A stretch of DNA of 64,000 nt from NCBI RefSeq assembly GCF_016907655.1, contig NZ_JAFBCL010000001.1, forward strand, positions 5,118,001-5,182,000. Reading direction: 5' to 3'. The notes under the pieces are model-generated. The model saw only the letters and a list, made by a program, of their open reading frames with translations, did not search any database and was not told the origin of the DNA. Positions 25,449-59,366 of this stretch are shown here, in pieces (position 1 is the first letter of the stretch; every line of letters starts with the position of its first letter). The position numbers and the translations under genes were made by a program. This DNA is from Saccharothrix algeriensis (GTDB lineage: Bacteria; Actinomycetota; Actinomycetes; Mycobacteriales; Pseudonocardiaceae).

Positions 25449-27467
25449 TCACCACCGCACGGCCAGGTCCGCTCCCGGCGCCGCGCCGACCACCAGGACG
25501 CCGGCCGCCCGCAGCAGCGGGGCCACCAGCGCCAGCGCCTCCCGGGCCAGCGGCTCCTCCGGCGGCACGTCCGACTCGACGCCGTGCAGCCCGTGCCGCT
25601 GCACCAGCGACAGCTCCGGCAGGGCGCAGGTGAAGCCGTGCAGCAGCCGCCGCACACCCATGTCCGCCAACGTGGTCAGGTTGTCCTCCACCACGTCCAG
25701 CCCGTCCGGCAGGCTGCCCGCCGCCAGGCTCAGCCACAGCGCCGAGGGCGCCAGCCCGGAGGCCCGCAGCGCTTCGGCGACCACCGCCGCCAGGTCCGGG
25801 TCGCGCGACTGGTCGACCGACAGCCGCACCAGCACCGGCAGCCGCTCCAGCGCCGCGAACGAGCACGCCTCGTCCAGCAGCCAGTGGCCCAACTGCCCGC
25901 TCAGCCCCAGCACGTCGGCGAACGCGAGGCAGTCCTCGTGGCCGACGACGCCGAACTCCGCCTCGTCCCACCGCAACCGGGCCGCCACCGCCGCCCGCTC
26001 GCCGGCCGCCGGCCCGCCGACGCGCTCCACCGGCCGGTAGTCGATGGCGATCTCGCCGTTCTCCAGCGCGCCGGGCATCGTGGCCATCAGCGACAGCCTC
26101 GTGCGGTCGCGGGCGTCCTGGCCCGCGTCGTAGATCCCCCACTGGCCCTTGCCGCCGCTCTCCGCCCGCCGCAGCGTGCTGTGCGCCTGGCGCAGCAGCG
26201 ACATCGCGTCCGCGCCCTTGGCCGACGTGCGCACGAAACCCATGCCCGCCGACACCCCGACGCCGTGGCCCGCCAGGTAGACCGGTTCGGACAGCTCCGC
26301 GTCGATCGCCTCGGCCAGCGCGGAGATGCTCGGCGTGCCGGGGGAGTCCTCGATCAGCACCACGAACTCGTCGCCGCCGATGCGGGCGACCGTCGCGTCC
26401 TCGCCCTCCACCACGGCGGTCAACCGCTGCGCCACGACCCGGAGCAGTTCGTCCCCCGCCTCGTACCCGAGGCCGTCGTTGACGATCGCCACGCTGTCCA
26501 CGTCCAGGTAGCACAACGTGACCGAGCCCGGCCGGTTGAGCGCGCGCTCCAGCCGCGGCAGGAAGCTCTGCCGGTTGGGCAGCCCGGTCAGCACGTCGTG
26601 CAGCGCCTGGTGCCTCAGGTAGTCGCGCAGCACCCGCTGCTCGGTCACGTCCTCGACCACCGCCACCCGCGACCGCGGCTCACCGCTGCTGTCGCGCACC
26701 AGGGTCAGCGTCACGTTCGTCCACAGCGGATCGCCCTGCGGACCGGCGAAGCAGTGCTCGAACCGCGTGCTGTCACCGGGCATCGCCGTCCACGCGGCCC
26801 GTAACGCGGCCAGGTCGGCGGGCTCGAACAGCTCCTCCGGGGCCAGGCCGGGGTTCTCCGCGGCCTCCTCGCCGCGCCCGAGCATCCGCACCAGCGCGGA
26901 ATTCGCCTCGACCACCGCGACCGCCGGGTCGAAGATCGCGACACCCAGGGCCGACGAGGAGAACAACCGGCGGAACCGCGCCTGGCTGTCGTTCAGCTCC
27001 CGGCGCGTCCCGTCCAGCTCCTCGCGCACCGCTTCGAGCTCGTCGCGGACGTCCTCCAGCCCTCCCCGGACCTCCTCCTGCTCCGCCACGAGCCTGCGCT
27101 CCACGGCCTCCGCGAAGCCCTCGGCGACCGCGCCCAGCACCGCCGCCACCCGCTCGGCCGGCAGGCCGGCCAGCGCCGTCCCCAGCACCTCCACGGCACG
27201 CCCCAGGACCGCCGACCCGGTGAACCCCGCGGACACCAGCCACCGCCCCACCTCCGCCGCGTCCCGCACCGCGTCCTGCGGCGGCGTGGCCGGGTCGGTC
27301 AGGAGGCACAGGTGGTGGGCCAGCCGCGCGCGGACCGCGGAGCCGTCCACCGGCGCGCGCGAGCCGGCGAGCAGCTCGCCGGCCCAGCGCTCGGCGACCT
27401 CCGCACGCGCGACATCCGCCGCGGAAGCGTCTCCCGAAGCTCGCTCTGCTGGTGCCGAATCGGTCAT
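25449..27467 (-). CDS. PAS-GGDEF diguanylate cyclase with degenerate EAL domain
   Basis: A 672-residue cytosolic c-di-GMP protein. Order: an N-terminal helical region (~1-120), a coiled coil (~123-155, EEVRGGLEDVRDELEAVREE), a PAS domain (~160-285), GGDEF (~290-450, with intact ARIGGDEFVVLIED near residue 360) and an EAL-like domain to the end. In the EAL part the canonical E-A-L is replaced (AAVAARLRWDEAEFG), VNxS reads VRLSVDQSRD, and DDFGTG reads LLHGFTCALPE, so phosphodiesterase activity is unlikely. Start ATG 27467; ATG 27485 is possible. A perfect palindrome lies just upstream. Confidence 0.85.
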   Translation of the reverse strand: MTDSAPAERASGDASAADVARAEVAERWAGELLAGSRAPVDGSAVRARLAHHLCLLTDPATPPQDAVRDAAEVGRWLVSAGFTGSAVLGRAVEVLGTALAGLPAERVAAVLGAVAEGFAEAVERRLVAEQEEVRGGLEDVRDELEAVREELDGTRRELNDSQARFRRLFSSSALGVAIFDPAVAVVEANSALVRMLGRGEEAAENPGLAPEELFEPADLAALRAAWTAMPGDSTRFEHCFAGPQGDPLWTNVTLTLVRDSSGEPRSRVAVVEDVTEQRVLRDYLRHQALHDVLTGLPNRQSFLPRLERALNRPGSVTLCYLDVDSVAIVNDGLGYEAGDELLRVVAQRLTAVVEGEDATVARIGGDEFVVLIEDSPGTPSISALAEAIDAELSEPVYLAGHGVGVSAGMGFVRTSAKGADAMSLLRQAHSTLRRAESGGKGQWGIYDAGQDARDRTRLSLMATMPGALENGEIAIDYRPVERVGGPAAGERAAVAARLRWDEAEFGVVGHEDCLAFADVLGLSGQLGHWLLDEACSFAALERLPVLVRLSVDQSRDPDLAAVVAEALRASGLAPSALWLSLAAGSLPDGLDVVEDNLTTLADMGVRRLLHGFTCALPELSLVQRHGLHGVESDVPPEEPLAREALALVAPLLRAAGVLVVGAAPGADLAVRW

Positions 27468-27489
27468 CGAGGAAAGGGGGCGCATATGA

Positions 27490-27516
27490 TCGGGTCCGCA
27501 AATCTTGCGGACCCGA
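27490..27516 (-). promoter_or_regulatory. palindrome over the GGDEF gene promoter
   Basis: Perfect 12-bp arms TCGGGTCCGCAA / TTGCGGACCCGA with a 3-nt centre, ending 22 bp before the chosen start of the GGDEF gene. On the minus strand TTGACG (27531-27526) and CAAGAT (27507-27502), 18 bp apart, resemble -35/-10 boxes, so the palindrome would cover the -10. This suggests a repressor operator, or a 5' hairpin if transcription starts further upstream. Confidence 0.6.
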
Positions 27517-27738
27517 CCCACCCCGCGTCAAGGTTTTCTGCCGATTGCCGCGCACGAGTTGGCGCGCCCCTCGGGCGACGACCCCGCGGACGGGCGCGGA
27601 GCGGCCGAAGTCGAGCACTCGACACATCTCTCGCGCCCACACCACCACTTCGGCTCCACGAAGCCCCCGACGCCCCCGGCACTCCCGCGAAGACTCACCG
27701 ACACCACCCGAGCACCGCCCCCAGGTCGCTTGTGGCTC

Positions 27739-27948
27739 TCGGCACGCCCCGTGCAGCCCGGTGCCTTCGTGTTCTCCCCGTATGGCCTGCCCGGAGGGCT
27801 ACCATGCTTTCTCGGGGAGGGCAAGCACGCTTTTCGCTTGCCCTCCCCGAGAAAGCATGGTTGTCTTTGACAGGCCATACGGGGAGAACACGACCGCTGT
27901 TTCTTTTCCTTCTCCTTGGCGGCCTGCCTGTCCGGCGAGGACTCTTTT
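27739..27948 (+). repeat. nested-hairpin element A (left type, locus 1)
   Basis: A 210-bp element with an outer perfect 21-bp stem (27769-27789 with 27871-27891, starting GTGTTCTCCCCG). Short unpaired bulges follow, then an inner perfect 26-bp stem (27801-27826 with 27836-27861) closed by the 9-nt loop ACGCTTTTC. A pyrimidine-rich tail TTTCTTTTCCTTCTCC follows the outer stem. It is nearly identical to element C at 58157 except in the inner stem, and related in inverted orientation to B and D. Short open frames crossing it are artefacts of the repeat. I do not know a named family for it. Confidence 0.9.
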
Positions 27949-27993
27949 AAGCTCTTCAGCTTAGATCCGTACCGCACCAATTCTTACCCAGAT

Positions 27994-28223
27994 CGGTGCG
28001 CGACCCAAGTATGAAGAGCGGCCGAGAGGCCCCCAAGGAGGAGGAAAAGCAAGAGCGGTCGTGTTCTCCTCCCCGCACGGCCTGCCGAAGGCAATCAGAT
28101 TTGTCGAGGGCTGTCAAGCGAAGAGCGTGCTTGACAGCCCTCGACAAATCTGATTGGGCTGCGCCCAGGCCGTACGGGGAGGAGAACACGAAGGCACCGG
28201 TATGCGCACTGGGTGCGGCACTC
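27994..28223 (-). repeat. nested-hairpin element B (right type, locus 1)
   Basis: The inverted partner of element A, 45 bp away. On the plus strand the outer 23-bp arms are 28061-28083 and 28167-28189, with one non-canonical pair that is G-T when read on the minus strand. The perfect 28-bp inner arms are 28092-28119 and 28129-28156, around a loop GAAGAGCGT, i.e. ACGCTCTTC on the minus strand. Read on the minus strand it has the same order of parts as A, including a TTTTCCTCCTCC tail. It is closest to element D. Confidence 0.9.
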
Positions 28224-28419
28224 CTGTGTGGAAATCGCAGAGGTGCGCTGGTGGTGTGTGGAAAGCAGCGGGGGTGTGCCTCTGTGTCGGCCCGGGGGAA
28301 TGTGGCCCGGGGGAATGTGTAGAGCGTGAAAGTGCAAAGCCGGTGGAAGGAGCCGTCCGGCTGCCGAGCCCCGACCGGCTCGGCAAGCCGTCAGCCCCCT
28401 GGGCACGGACCCGCTGCCA

Positions 28420-28989
28420 CTAGACGCAGATCCACTCGGTCACCATCGTCGTCCCGTCGGCCTCGATGCGGAACCGCACGGGACCGGGCGGGGGCGGGCC
28501 GAGCAGGAAGCAGCCCAGCTCGTCCAGCTCCGCCTCCTCCACCGGTCCGCCCGCCGTGAACAGCGCGACCCGGCCCTGCCGCGCGGGCAGGACCTGGCCG
28601 GCCACGCCGGCTTCGGTGACCTCGACCTGCACCGAGATCCTCTCGGCGTTCCCCTCGGCGTTCCCCTCGGCAGACCTTTCGGAGAACCCTCCAGGGGCTC
28701 CTTCCACGGCCTTGTCCGGGGCGCCTCGTGCGCCTCCCTCGAAGGAGCCCCCGGCGTCGAACACCAGCTGCCGCGCGGTCAACGCCGCGCGGGCCCGGTT
28801 CGCCAGTTCGGGGTCCATGGTCGAGTCGTAGCTCGTCAGCAGCACCACCAGCTCGGCGTCGACGGTGCGCCACGCGAACGCCGCGCGGCCCGCCTCGACG
28901 AACTCCTCCGGCACGGTGCGCGCCTCGGCCAGTGCCTCGGCCAGCTCGCGCAGCAGCACCTCATCGCTTCCCCACTCGGGATCGTTCAC
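28420..28989 (-). CDS. unknown protein downstream of an ECF sigma factor
   Basis: A 189-residue protein without a family I can name. The N-terminal ~60 residues are helical and contain FVEAGRAAFAWRTVDAEL followed by VVLLTSYDST. The centre is a low-complexity Gly/Glu-rich linker with a short SAEGNAEGNAE repeat. The C-terminal ~65 residues look like a beta-rich domain (ISVQVEVTEAGVAGQVLP). GTG at 28989 follows GGAGGGGG. Its first 29 bp overlap the end of the sigma factor gene, so the two are co-translated. An anti-sigma or sensor role for the sigma factor is plausible by position only. Confidence 0.75.
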   Translation of the reverse strand: MNDPEWGSDEVLLRELAEALAEARTVPEEFVEAGRAAFAWRTVDAELVVLLTSYDSTMDPELANRARAALTARQLVFDAGGSFEGGARGAPDKAVEGAPGGFSERSAEGNAEGNAERISVQVEVTEAGVAGQVLPARQGRVALFTAGGPVEEAELDELGCFLLGPPPPGPVRFRIEADGTTMVTEWICV

Positions 28990-54843: not shown

Positions 54844-54920
54844 TCCGACCGCTGAGATCCCCGTCGCGCGGGTGAATCGCCCGGTCGGCGGCCGGGTACC
54901 ATTCGCGGGTAGTCGCTTTA

Positions 54921-55112
54921 TCCCGTGCGGGAGAGTCCGAGACCTGCTCTCGGCGCCGAAGGAGCAAATCCTCCCCGGAACCTCTCAGGCGCAAGGACCG
55001 CGCGGGTGAGACGCCTCTGGAAAGCGGGTCGGGCAGCCGGCCCCGCCGACGGTGCAAGCCCGCGCGCGGGTGAAGCTCTCAGGCGCCCGGTCCGGGCGGA
55101 AGACAGAGGGGG
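54921..55112 (+). ncRNA. tandem glycine riboswitch
   Basis: Two glycine aptamers in series in the gcvP leader. The first (about 54924-55004) has GCGGGAGAGTCC, GCCGAAGGAGCAA and CCTCTCAGGCGCAAGGACCG. The second (about 55009-55112) has CCTCTGGAAAGCGGG, GACGGTGCAAG, GTGAAGCTCTCAGGC and GGAAGACAGAGGGG. This matches the known glycine riboswitch, normally an ON switch for glycine cleavage genes. gcvP starts 60 bases after it. Confidence 0.95.
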
Positions 55113-58156: not shown

Positions 58157-58366
58157 TCGGCACGCCCCGTGCAGACCGGTGTCTTCGTGTTCTCCCCGTA
58201 TGGCCTGCCCGGAGGGCTACCATGCTTTCTTGGGGGGTGCAAGCACGCTTTTCGCTTGCACCCCCCAAGAAAGCATGGTCGTCTTTGACAGGCCATGCGG
58301 GGAGAACACGACCGCTGTTTCTTTTCCTTCTCCTTGGCGGCCTGCCTGTCCGGCGAGGACTCTTTT
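58157..58366 (+). repeat. nested-hairpin element C (left type, locus 2)
   Basis: 210 bp, the same length as element A. The outer 21-bp arms are 58187-58207 and 58289-58309, with one T-G pair where A has T-A. The inner perfect 26-bp arms are 58219-58244 and 58254-58279 around loop ACGCTTTTC. Outside the inner stem only about four bases differ from A in ~150; inside it, three base pairs differ and all remain paired. It begins 96 bp after the gcvP stop. Confidence 0.9.
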
Positions 58367-58466
58367 GGAGTACTTCTCACCTGGCGTGATCCAGTGCCGT
58401 GATGGATCATTCGGCGTTGCGGTAGGCGCCGGACGGGTCGTGATCCTGCGGTTCACCACCCCGGCG

Positions 58467-58549
58467 CCGGTGTCGGATCGGGCGGTGTCCACCGCGACCG
58501 CCTACGCGCTGACCAGCGGCTGCGCCTGGCGGGACCTGCCGTCTTCCAG
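58467..58549 (+). pseudogene. transposase remnant, IS5/DUF4096-like
   Basis: The frame reads VSDRAVSTATAYALTSGCAWRDLP, which resembles the N-terminal DUF4096 region of IS5-family transposases (xALTSGCAWRxLP). Sequence before and after does not continue the family, so only about 25 residues survive. It lies between element C and the orphan gene. Recognition is by eye from a short match. Confidence 0.5.
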
Positions 58550-58574
58550 CACGACTACAGGCCGTGGAGTTGAT

Positions 58575-59006
58575 ATGTCCGGATGGACTCCGGTGGTGTA
58601 TCGCGGGGACGGGGCATGGATCGGGGTCATGTCCGGAGGGCGGATCGGCGTAGGGGTGGAACCGGAAGGTCGGGCTACCCTTGTGGGTTCCGGGTTCGTT
58701 CCCATGTGGCCCTTCATGGAGGGAAAGCTCTCTGCTTGTCTCGACGCGTTTTCTCGCGTGTGGGAATCCTTCGACGGATGTGATGTGTCGACTCCCGAGG
58801 AGTTGATCGAGTCGACCGTCGCGTCGGCATGGGCCTCGGGTCGCTCTTATTGGATGGAACTGGCTGTTCCCTGGGTGATCGAGATGGCGCAGGCGCGGGA
58901 GGGCGGATTCGATCGAAAGCTCGTCCACGAGCTTCTTGACGGGATGGCGGAGTCGAAGACCTTGGCTCCGGATTTGCGCGCTCGAGTTCGGCGAGTCAGG
59001 GCTTAG
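58575..59006 (+). CDS. orphan protein inside the locus 2 hairpin pair
   Basis: A 143-residue protein with no family I recognise. GC content and codon use are visibly lower and less biased than in the neighbours (many third-position A/T), a sign of acquisition. N-terminus MSGWTPVVYRGDGAWIGVM suggests beta strands; the second half is helical (GRSYWMELAVPWVIEMAQAR) and ends with DLRARVRRVRA. ATG preceded by GGAG at five bases. The open frame upstream of 58575 runs through the transposase remnant and is not part of it. Cargo or immunity-type roles are guesses. Confidence 0.6.
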   Translation: MSGWTPVVYRGDGAWIGVMSGGRIGVGVEPEGRATLVGSGFVPMWPFMEGKLSACLDAFSRVWESFDGCDVSTPEELIESTVASAWASGRSYWMELAVPWVIEMAQAREGGFDRKLVHELLDGMAESKTLAPDLRARVRRVRA

Positions 59007-59136
59007 CCCGATGTCGCAGGCTTGGGCTGTGTTCGCGACTCGGGGGCGTCTCTGTTCGGCGATCGAATGTGGCTCTGGTCGGCGGGAAGCTTTGCCTTTC
59101 AGCTCCGGGCTCTACCGCGCCTGATCTCACCTGGGT

Positions 59137-59366
59137 CGGTGCGCGATCTTGGTATGAAGAGCGGCCGAGAGGCCCCCAAGGAGGAGGAAAAGAAAGGGCG
59201 GTCGTGTTCTCCTCCCCGCACGGCCTGCCGGAGGCAATCATGGTTGTCGGGGGGTGTCAAGCGAAGAGCGTGCTTGACACCCCCCGACAACCATGATTGG
59301 GCTGCGCCCAGGCCGTACGGGGAGGAGAACACGAAGGCACCGGTGTGCGCACCAGGTGCGGCGCTC
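59137..59366 (-). repeat. nested-hairpin element D (right type, locus 2)
   Basis: 230 bp, the same length as element B. The outer 23-bp arms are 59204-59226 and 59310-59332; the inner perfect 28-bp arms are 59235-59262 and 59272-59299 around loop GAAGAGCGT (plus strand). It differs from B at five inner base pairs, all still complementary. Read on the minus strand it has the same order of parts as A and C. It ends five bases before the DUF3224 stop codon, so it may also serve as that gene's terminator. Confidence 0.9.

Follow-up and report, generated by a model that had tools for sequence, protein, structure and literature searches.

The question raised by positions 27,739 to 28,223 of the window, the whole stretch of 64,000 nucleotides of Saccharothrix algeriensis that was analysed (contig NZ_JAFBCL010000001.1, positions 5,118,001 to 5,182,000), is what kind of element fills this gap between genes. 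A first-pass annotation had described two facing nested-hairpin elements of an apparently undescribed repeat family, and had left structured mobile DNA, an RNA pair and a protein-binding cruciform side by side. These possibilities can only be weighted: an RNA-level role is weakly favoured over one of single-stranded DNA, and unproven, and no RAYT was found in the S. algeriensis genome. The reading that we tentatively place first is a BIME-like mosaic repeat that works mainly via a folded transcript at gene ends. The family would be formed by non-autonomous mosaic repeats that work as a single strand folded back on itself.

Architecture of the composite element

Positions 27742-28216 form one composite element of about 475-480 bp, in which two nested-hairpin units, A on the forward and B on the reverse strand, stand head to head, share a middle stem and are flanked by tails; an outer inverted repeat (27742-27777 and 28181-28216) bounds the whole. 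Unit A starts with a tail mini-hairpin read as GCACG-CCC-CGTGC (27742-27754, forward strand), and tails related to it were also found in other copies. Its nested hairpin (27767-27893, forward strand) consists of a 23-nt outer stem with 100% complementarity (27767-27789 and 27871-27893), a junction and a perfect 26-bp inner stem (27801-27826 and 27836-27861) closed by the 9-nt loop ACGCTTTTC at 27827-27835. This unit gave 143.5 bits, among the top matches of a covariance model whose alignment contains the unit itself (L117). A third, imperfect copy of its 5' outer arm, TTCTCC-TTGGC-GGCCTGCC (27910-27928, forward strand), comes next, and after it the conserved end motif GTCCGGCGAGGAC with a T-rich run (27930-27948, forward strand), which stays below the consensus of a terminator scan.

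Unit B (28059-28191, reverse strand) has an outer stem of 26 nt at 96% (28059-28084 and 28166-28191) and a perfect inner stem of 28 bp (28092-28119 and 28129-28156) around a 9-nt loop that reads ACGCTCTTC in sense. The third copy of its outer arm was located by eye at 28025-28044 (reverse strand), and its tail (28192-28265, reverse strand) holds two degenerate tandem units of about 30 bp (28212-28234 and 28242-28264, spacing 30, 74%). The arms were recovered where they had first been noted, as were the two perfect inner stems and the 9-nt loops, and the outer stems of 21-23 bp hold for unit A but not for unit B, where the stem is slightly longer and imperfect. The spacer of 45 bp described between two elements is not free: the left arm of the middle stem (27883-27925, forward strand) is 91% complementary to its right arm (28027-28069, forward strand), so that both units belong to a single composite element. 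Between these arms lies a variable middle loop (27949-28010), which is reshuffled among copies and is the site of some inserts. The predicted fold of 561 nt around the pair reached -382 kcal/mol, against -226 (sd 5.9) in 100 shuffles (z = -26.5). Read in sense from 5' to 3', a unit opens with the mini-hairpin tail and the 5' outer arm; the junction and the perfect inner hairpin follow, then the 3' outer arm, and beyond a spacer come the third, imperfect arm copy and an end motif CGGCGAG with its T-rich run.

A second element of the window has its unit A at 58185-58311 (forward strand) and its unit B at 59202-59334 (reverse strand). Its middle loop is longer by about 780 bp (58370-59130), and the insert contains what by eye is a transposase remnant (GCAWRDLP); an ORF of 275 aa running from 58179 to 59006 includes element sequence. 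The window also holds a glycine riboswitch at 54918-55010 (70.6 bits).

Copies, paired changes and the third arm copy

The S. algeriensis genome (a single contig of 6.88 Mb, rated 90% complete) was searched with a pattern for the inner-hairpin loop, CAAGCACGCTN{2,5}CGCTTG. This gave 90 forward and 91 reverse matches, 181 in all, and none with the reversed pattern as control, which bears out the idea of a repeat family. In a DNA search of the same genome the best 40 of 139 candidates span all or most of 27742-28216 at 87-100% identity. We read 78 loci (61 clusters from the first 100 listed pattern places and 17 further DNA-search matches), which hold 134 inner hairpins; in 128 of them the stem is unbroken over 25-28 bp, and 42 distinct stem strings occur over all 134. 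About 95 elements of some 480 bp would make up, by estimate, roughly 0.7% of the genome, in which case genome annotation would gain from recognising them. The copies are mosaics, and at some loci (five seen) the usual loop type is paired with a unit of another subtype that has TCATCC arms and another apex. As a separate observation, the tails of some units are tandem arrays of mini-hairpins with repeats of about 31 or 39 bp (L054:2422-2536, L051:2969-3124; none found in L195), and at L202 of genome G020 an array of different sequence was seen by eye upstream of the unit.

For the analysis of paired change 58 units were aligned: from 77 units distinct by inner stem 64 were taken, and 6 of these were dropped as IS-interrupted, misoriented, incomplete or of no added use. 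In the proposed structure standard pairs fill 99.2% of 3146 cells, and 32 of the 55 pairs show changes on both sides. Double-changed cells numbered 522 against 150 in shuffles, and the covariation score was 0.465 against 0.150 in shuffles and at most 0.105 when slid. All four Watson-Crick pairs occur at several inner-stem positions, a number of units tolerate a mismatch of one base between the arms (GTT with CAC), and the loop, the junction and the arm core are conserved while the stem letters vary. Selection or correction acts on the single-stranded fold. Within the junction, three pairs of its two side mini-hairpins have changed on both sides; the energy fold instead pairs this region across, and a four-way junction with two side mini-hairpins is for that reason put forward as a proposal only.

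The same behaviour was seen between two sister species (G001 and G010, relA 99.2% identical), in which the element was present in both at all nine syntenic sites compared, with its modules changed. The outer-arm block had changed on both arms at six of the nine sites, and at four of these six the inner-stem block had changed likewise; this share is biased upward, since the four sites with inner-block change were picked because the model scored one partner only. At the other three sites the differences concern the apex, the spacer or single bases. One further candidate comparison (L240 against L241 and L242) was not syntenic and was left out.

Concerted changes of blocks of several bases on both arms, as seen between orthologous sites, could also arise in selfish palindromes without a present role, which would survive where they are least harmful while template-switch correction and gene conversion keep their arms identical. 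Perfect stems would then need no function. Passages of PMC8604942 and PMC7202029 describe template switching as homogenising the arms of quasipalindromes, and a position away from divergent gaps (see below) would fit purifying selection. We nevertheless consider this explanation unlikely: it does not account for a loop, junction and arm core that stay conserved while the stem letters change, nor for a third copy that tracks the arm from outside the palindrome, and correction should remove G.T and A.C mismatches alike, but G.T persists in sense.

This last point comes from a strand test in which 399 distinct core strings from both strands were reduced to 147 in sense, 145 of them with a readable loop. 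Counted by cells, which related copies inflate, the outer stems in sense showed 78 G.T against 3 A.C in S. algeriensis and 46 against 2 in relatives, with 6 and 15 other mismatches, respectively. The inner stems of relatives gave 38 G.T, 1 A.C and 33 others, and those of S. algeriensis 7, 3 and 1; inner stems wholly Watson-Crick over 24 bp were found in 80 of 86 S. algeriensis units and 27 of 59 units of relatives. As distinct events of position, pair and genome, 24 G.T stood against 12 A.C (p = 0.065), beside 35 other mismatch events. On this count the sense-strand excess of G.T over A.C is suggestive.

Downstream of each unit the third copy is an imperfect direct repeat of the 5' outer arm with an altered centre; in unit A, for example, the arm reads TTCTCC-CCGTAT-GGCCTGCCCG, to be compared with the third copy given above. 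The mean local score between arm and downstream sequence was 10.3 for 52 units of Saccharothrix tamanrassetensis (7.2 with shuffled and 8.2 with reverse-complement arms), 9.1 for 87 units of S. algeriensis (7.2 and 7.6) and 10.0 for 8 other units (7.4 and 7.1). A permutation test was made with 11 subfamily representatives that have distinct arms (37 were found), not all of them independent. The arms scored 6.5 with their own third copies and 4.4 with those of other units, and none of 20000 permutations reached 6.5, while two of the 11 representatives scored no better with their own third copy than with those of others. Outer arm and third copy coevolve. Since the third copy is an imperfect direct copy of the 5' arm, the 3' arm would be able to pair with either of them, and two mutually exclusive folds may be available to each unit.

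A broader formulation, possible but doubtful in our estimation, would make of these elements a class of structured nucleic-acid modules in several genera of one family, in which arm, complement and displaced third copy coevolve three-way around an exchangeable apical domain. Through copying and recombination such a module would have formed mosaics at some hundred places in each genome. Its working form would be an RNA at 3' ends that can switch between two exclusive folds, or else folded single-stranded DNA on which a putative mobilising enzyme acts. The second half of this formulation can be taken alone, as a substrate of recombination or transposition: the nested hairpin would be extruded and handled by a putative enzyme acting in trans, as are REP and IS200-type hairpins or attC, and the arm, the inverted arm and the third copy would be its binding sites. 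Three coevolving copies of a recognition-like sequence and the mosaicism agree with this, and the strand asymmetry is equally expected for a single strand of DNA. GNA triloops are very stable in DNA, and the side mini-hairpins, backed by paired changes, carry them (GGGC-GCA-GCCC and GCCC-GGA-GGGC). We judge this explanation rather unlikely on account of the enzymes and junctions considered below, where the avoidance of divergent gaps would also call for additional selection.

Sites in the genome and among relatives

Gene context was assigned with a simple codon-usage gene caller, which classed 76 of the 78 loci: 32 lie in convergent, 40 in co-directional and 4 in divergent gaps. Seven of them have an IS as neighbour, and without these the figures are 31, 35 and 3 (n = 69). 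The reference was the 37 gaps of at least 50 bp in the window (7 convergent, 20 co-directional and 10 divergent), against which the elements are underrepresented in divergent gaps (p = 0.001) and overrepresented in convergent ones (p = 0.01). The elements lie near gene 3' ends, at a median distance of 108 bp as against 294 bp to the 5' end. Both ends could be typed at 23 of the 32 convergent loci, and all 23 combine A with B; one end was untyped at the other nine. Because A and B face each other, transcripts from either gene of a convergent pair would enter a unit in its sense direction.

Starting from 148 units, we compared those whose tail faces a gene 3' end with those facing a 5' end, after dropping seven IS-interrupted units, six without the standard loop and one without a gene to face, and correcting the sense of three. 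A non-standard pair occurred in 1 of 93 units in the first group and in 4 of 41 in the second (p = 0.03), a contrast that rests on five units and that is inflated (3 of 92 against 9 of 46) when IS-interrupted units are kept. The position, this contrast and the sense-strand G.T pairs lean towards RNA, whereas copy number, turnover of sites and the repeated recognition-like arm lean towards a mobile DNA substrate. Two negative results count against a role in RNA 3' ends: neither A nor B was preferred at the 3' end of the upstream gene (22 against 16, p = 0.42; 20 against 14 without IS loci), and the units not recognised in pairs followed no clear orientation rule (10 against 6). Directional insertion of A or B was likewise dismissed for want of an orientation bias.

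An insertion sequence of 1.17 kb, IS630-like by reading of its sequence, was found in 11 identical copies among the best 40 of 537 candidates (L249-L259 in the S. algeriensis genome; for example L059:2959-4130). Ten of the 11 copies lie inside nested-hairpin elements, one of them in a middle loop and nine at the TA within the conserved arm core CCATACGG/CCGTATGG or its variant CCGTACGG; the eleventh is outside the elements, at a CCATA...TACGG site. From these nine insertions it follows that the arm core is a preferred, near-exclusive target of this IS. Some ISs use REPs as targets, and in being the target of a particular IS the present elements resemble REPs and BIMEs. Cargo in the middle arm was discarded as an interpretation: loop spacing allowed 39 pairs to be recognised, of which one was enlarged, its insert (L074) being the IS630-like IS, and the second window element has the insert described above. 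None of the 39 carried an intact transposase of its own.

The family extends beyond S. algeriensis. Within the genus, BLAST matched 16 of 25 genomes and the covariance model (E <= 1e-6) at least 22 of 25, S. algeriensis included in both counts; the contigs listed with the element include those of S. tamanrassetensis, S. obliqua and Saccharothrix sp. RH59_bin.028. Within the family the model matched 49 of 200 genomes (S. algeriensis included) and 19 of 46 genera, a result less sure than that for the genus, given that the model carries little information per position and that many genera have a single match, possibly an ordinary long hairpin. Of 150 genomes sampled across the family, two contain the exact 24-base arm motif, and both belong to the same genus as S. 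algeriensis. Five loci were read from five genomes of two other genera: L227, L228 and L229 (the last on the other strand) have the arm core, junction, third copy and end motif, and in L224 and L225 the loop is the same and the arms are different. At L228 and L229, from two genomes of another genus, the element adjoins apparently the same pair of tRNA genes.

The sites differ between species. The gene beside the window element was matched in all 24 relatives, and in the eight in which the adjoining gap was read only S. tamanrassetensis (G021) had a unit there, of another subtype. The strict motif was found in the ppi-relA gap of 3 genomes out of 20 and in the relA-apt gap of 3 out of 22 (names from reading of translations); S. 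tamanrassetensis has units at both relA-flanking sites, where S. algeriensis lacks the element, and G013, G015 and G017 have a diverged unit type at the ppi-relA site. In the relA-apt gap of G002 (L197) a plain hairpin without a nested one is followed by the end motif GGCGAGGACGCTT, perhaps as a minimal form. Of 31 S. tamanrassetensis loci 8 overlap S. algeriensis loci, with three sites shared by reading, one clear syntenic site filled in S. algeriensis only (L085 against the empty L163) and four that are rearranged or undecidable. In one syntenic block of the two species (L158 against L118) the orientation flips near an element, as if elements were recombination breakpoints.

Presence and absence between species, together with high copy number, would be expected of a DNA substrate that is mobilised in trans. 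However, no target-site duplication could be read at filled against empty sites, the comparison resting on the one empty site above with the relA and ppi sites too diverged for junctions, and none of the copies seen carried its own intact enzyme gene, either among the 39 pairs or in the second window element with its remnant. In addition, neither a Y1 transposase (PF01797) nor a reverse transcriptase (PF00078) was detected in the S. algeriensis assembly. Elsewhere in the genus PF00078 does occur, in 10 of the 25 genomes, S. tamanrassetensis included; retro-mobility by a retroelement, retron or group II intron was rejected for the same lack of a reverse transcriptase in S. algeriensis. Plasmid or phage origin was also set aside, since a distant blastn search against plasmids and phages gave no match and the exact 24-base pattern was absent from viral contigs.

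Comparison with known elements

Returning to the folded transcript, the fold would most likely act in RNA at 3' ends, where it would stop read-through, hold off exonucleases or be processed. With intrinsic terminators the elements share the proximity to stop codons, the convergent gaps and, at the unit end, a hairpin-like motif that leads into a T-rich run. They differ from them in being far larger, in a negative consensus scan (none found at 27400-28450, against 0.7 in shuffles) and in lying, at the ppi 3' end of S. tamanrassetensis, downstream of what by eye is the gene's own strong hairpin terminator, so that little transcript may reach the unit. The scan and this native terminator argue against a plain terminator, which was rejected.

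No Rfam model matched the window element at gathering score, and 14 related loci gave only tRNAs; at a permissive E-value 9 of 11 matches were long-hairpin miRNA models, and all 11 fell below the gathering score. A known RNA was rejected on this Rfam result. The first annotation had known no named element of this design, and none was found in the open-licence PMC literature surveyed. Compared with these two sources, the element looks like an undescribed structured repeat. An HDV-like or bridge-RNA reading, prompted by the end motif and variable apex, had no supporting result.

MITEs are short, have terminal inverted repeats and reach high copy numbers. The elements share these traits and the presence or absence between species, but no same-ended partner transposon was found among the 39 pairs, no target duplication was read, and they have an internal nested structure under paired change. 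The ends of IS200/IS605-type elements and integron attC sites work as a folded single strand, with structure conserved more than sequence. In this the present elements are alike; they differ from the former in the lack of a Y1 gene in the S. algeriensis genome and from the latter in that neither an att core nor an organisation in cassettes was noticed.

The closest likeness is with REPs, BIMEs and REPINs, described in sections of PMC2817692 as abundant extragenic palindromes, over a hundred units per genome, in oppositely oriented pairs and mosaics with complementary mutations preserved. A REPIN or BIME family moved by a RAYT (Y1) transposase would have these same features, and one high-copy relative (G011) does have a Y1 gene; we regard it all the same as very improbable, and for S. 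algeriensis it was not supported. Apart from S. algeriensis, PF01797 is lacking in the high-copy relatives G002, G006, G018, G021 and G023, and four of the five genomes of 25 that have it (G004, G005, G011, G016 and G024) show at most four model matches. Moreover, the units exceed the REPs in the tables of PMC2817692 several-fold in size, and no GTAG-like tetranucleotide at the foot of a palindrome of about 20-40 nt, as in the definition given there, was seen by eye. Each unit here is a nested hairpin of about 130 bp with some 60 bp more that hold a third arm copy, joined into A-B heterodimers of about 480 bp with mini-hairpin tails, in tandem in several copies.

To our knowledge, most palindromes dispersed in bacterial genomes are small and linked with RAYTs or with IS ends. 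Here a far larger module, with very strong paired change, occurs across a soil-actinobacterial genus and beyond. What is new in it is the third arm copy that coevolves with the arm, sites that are kept between sister species while modules change, the position near gene 3' ends with avoidance of divergent gaps, the insertion of ten of 11 IS630-like copies within the elements, and the differences in sites between species. Its hundreds of natural variants offer a way to ask whether the perfection of a palindrome comes from selection on RNA, from selection on single-stranded DNA or from template switching in replication, and through them a new 3'-end RNA or mobilising enzyme may come to light.
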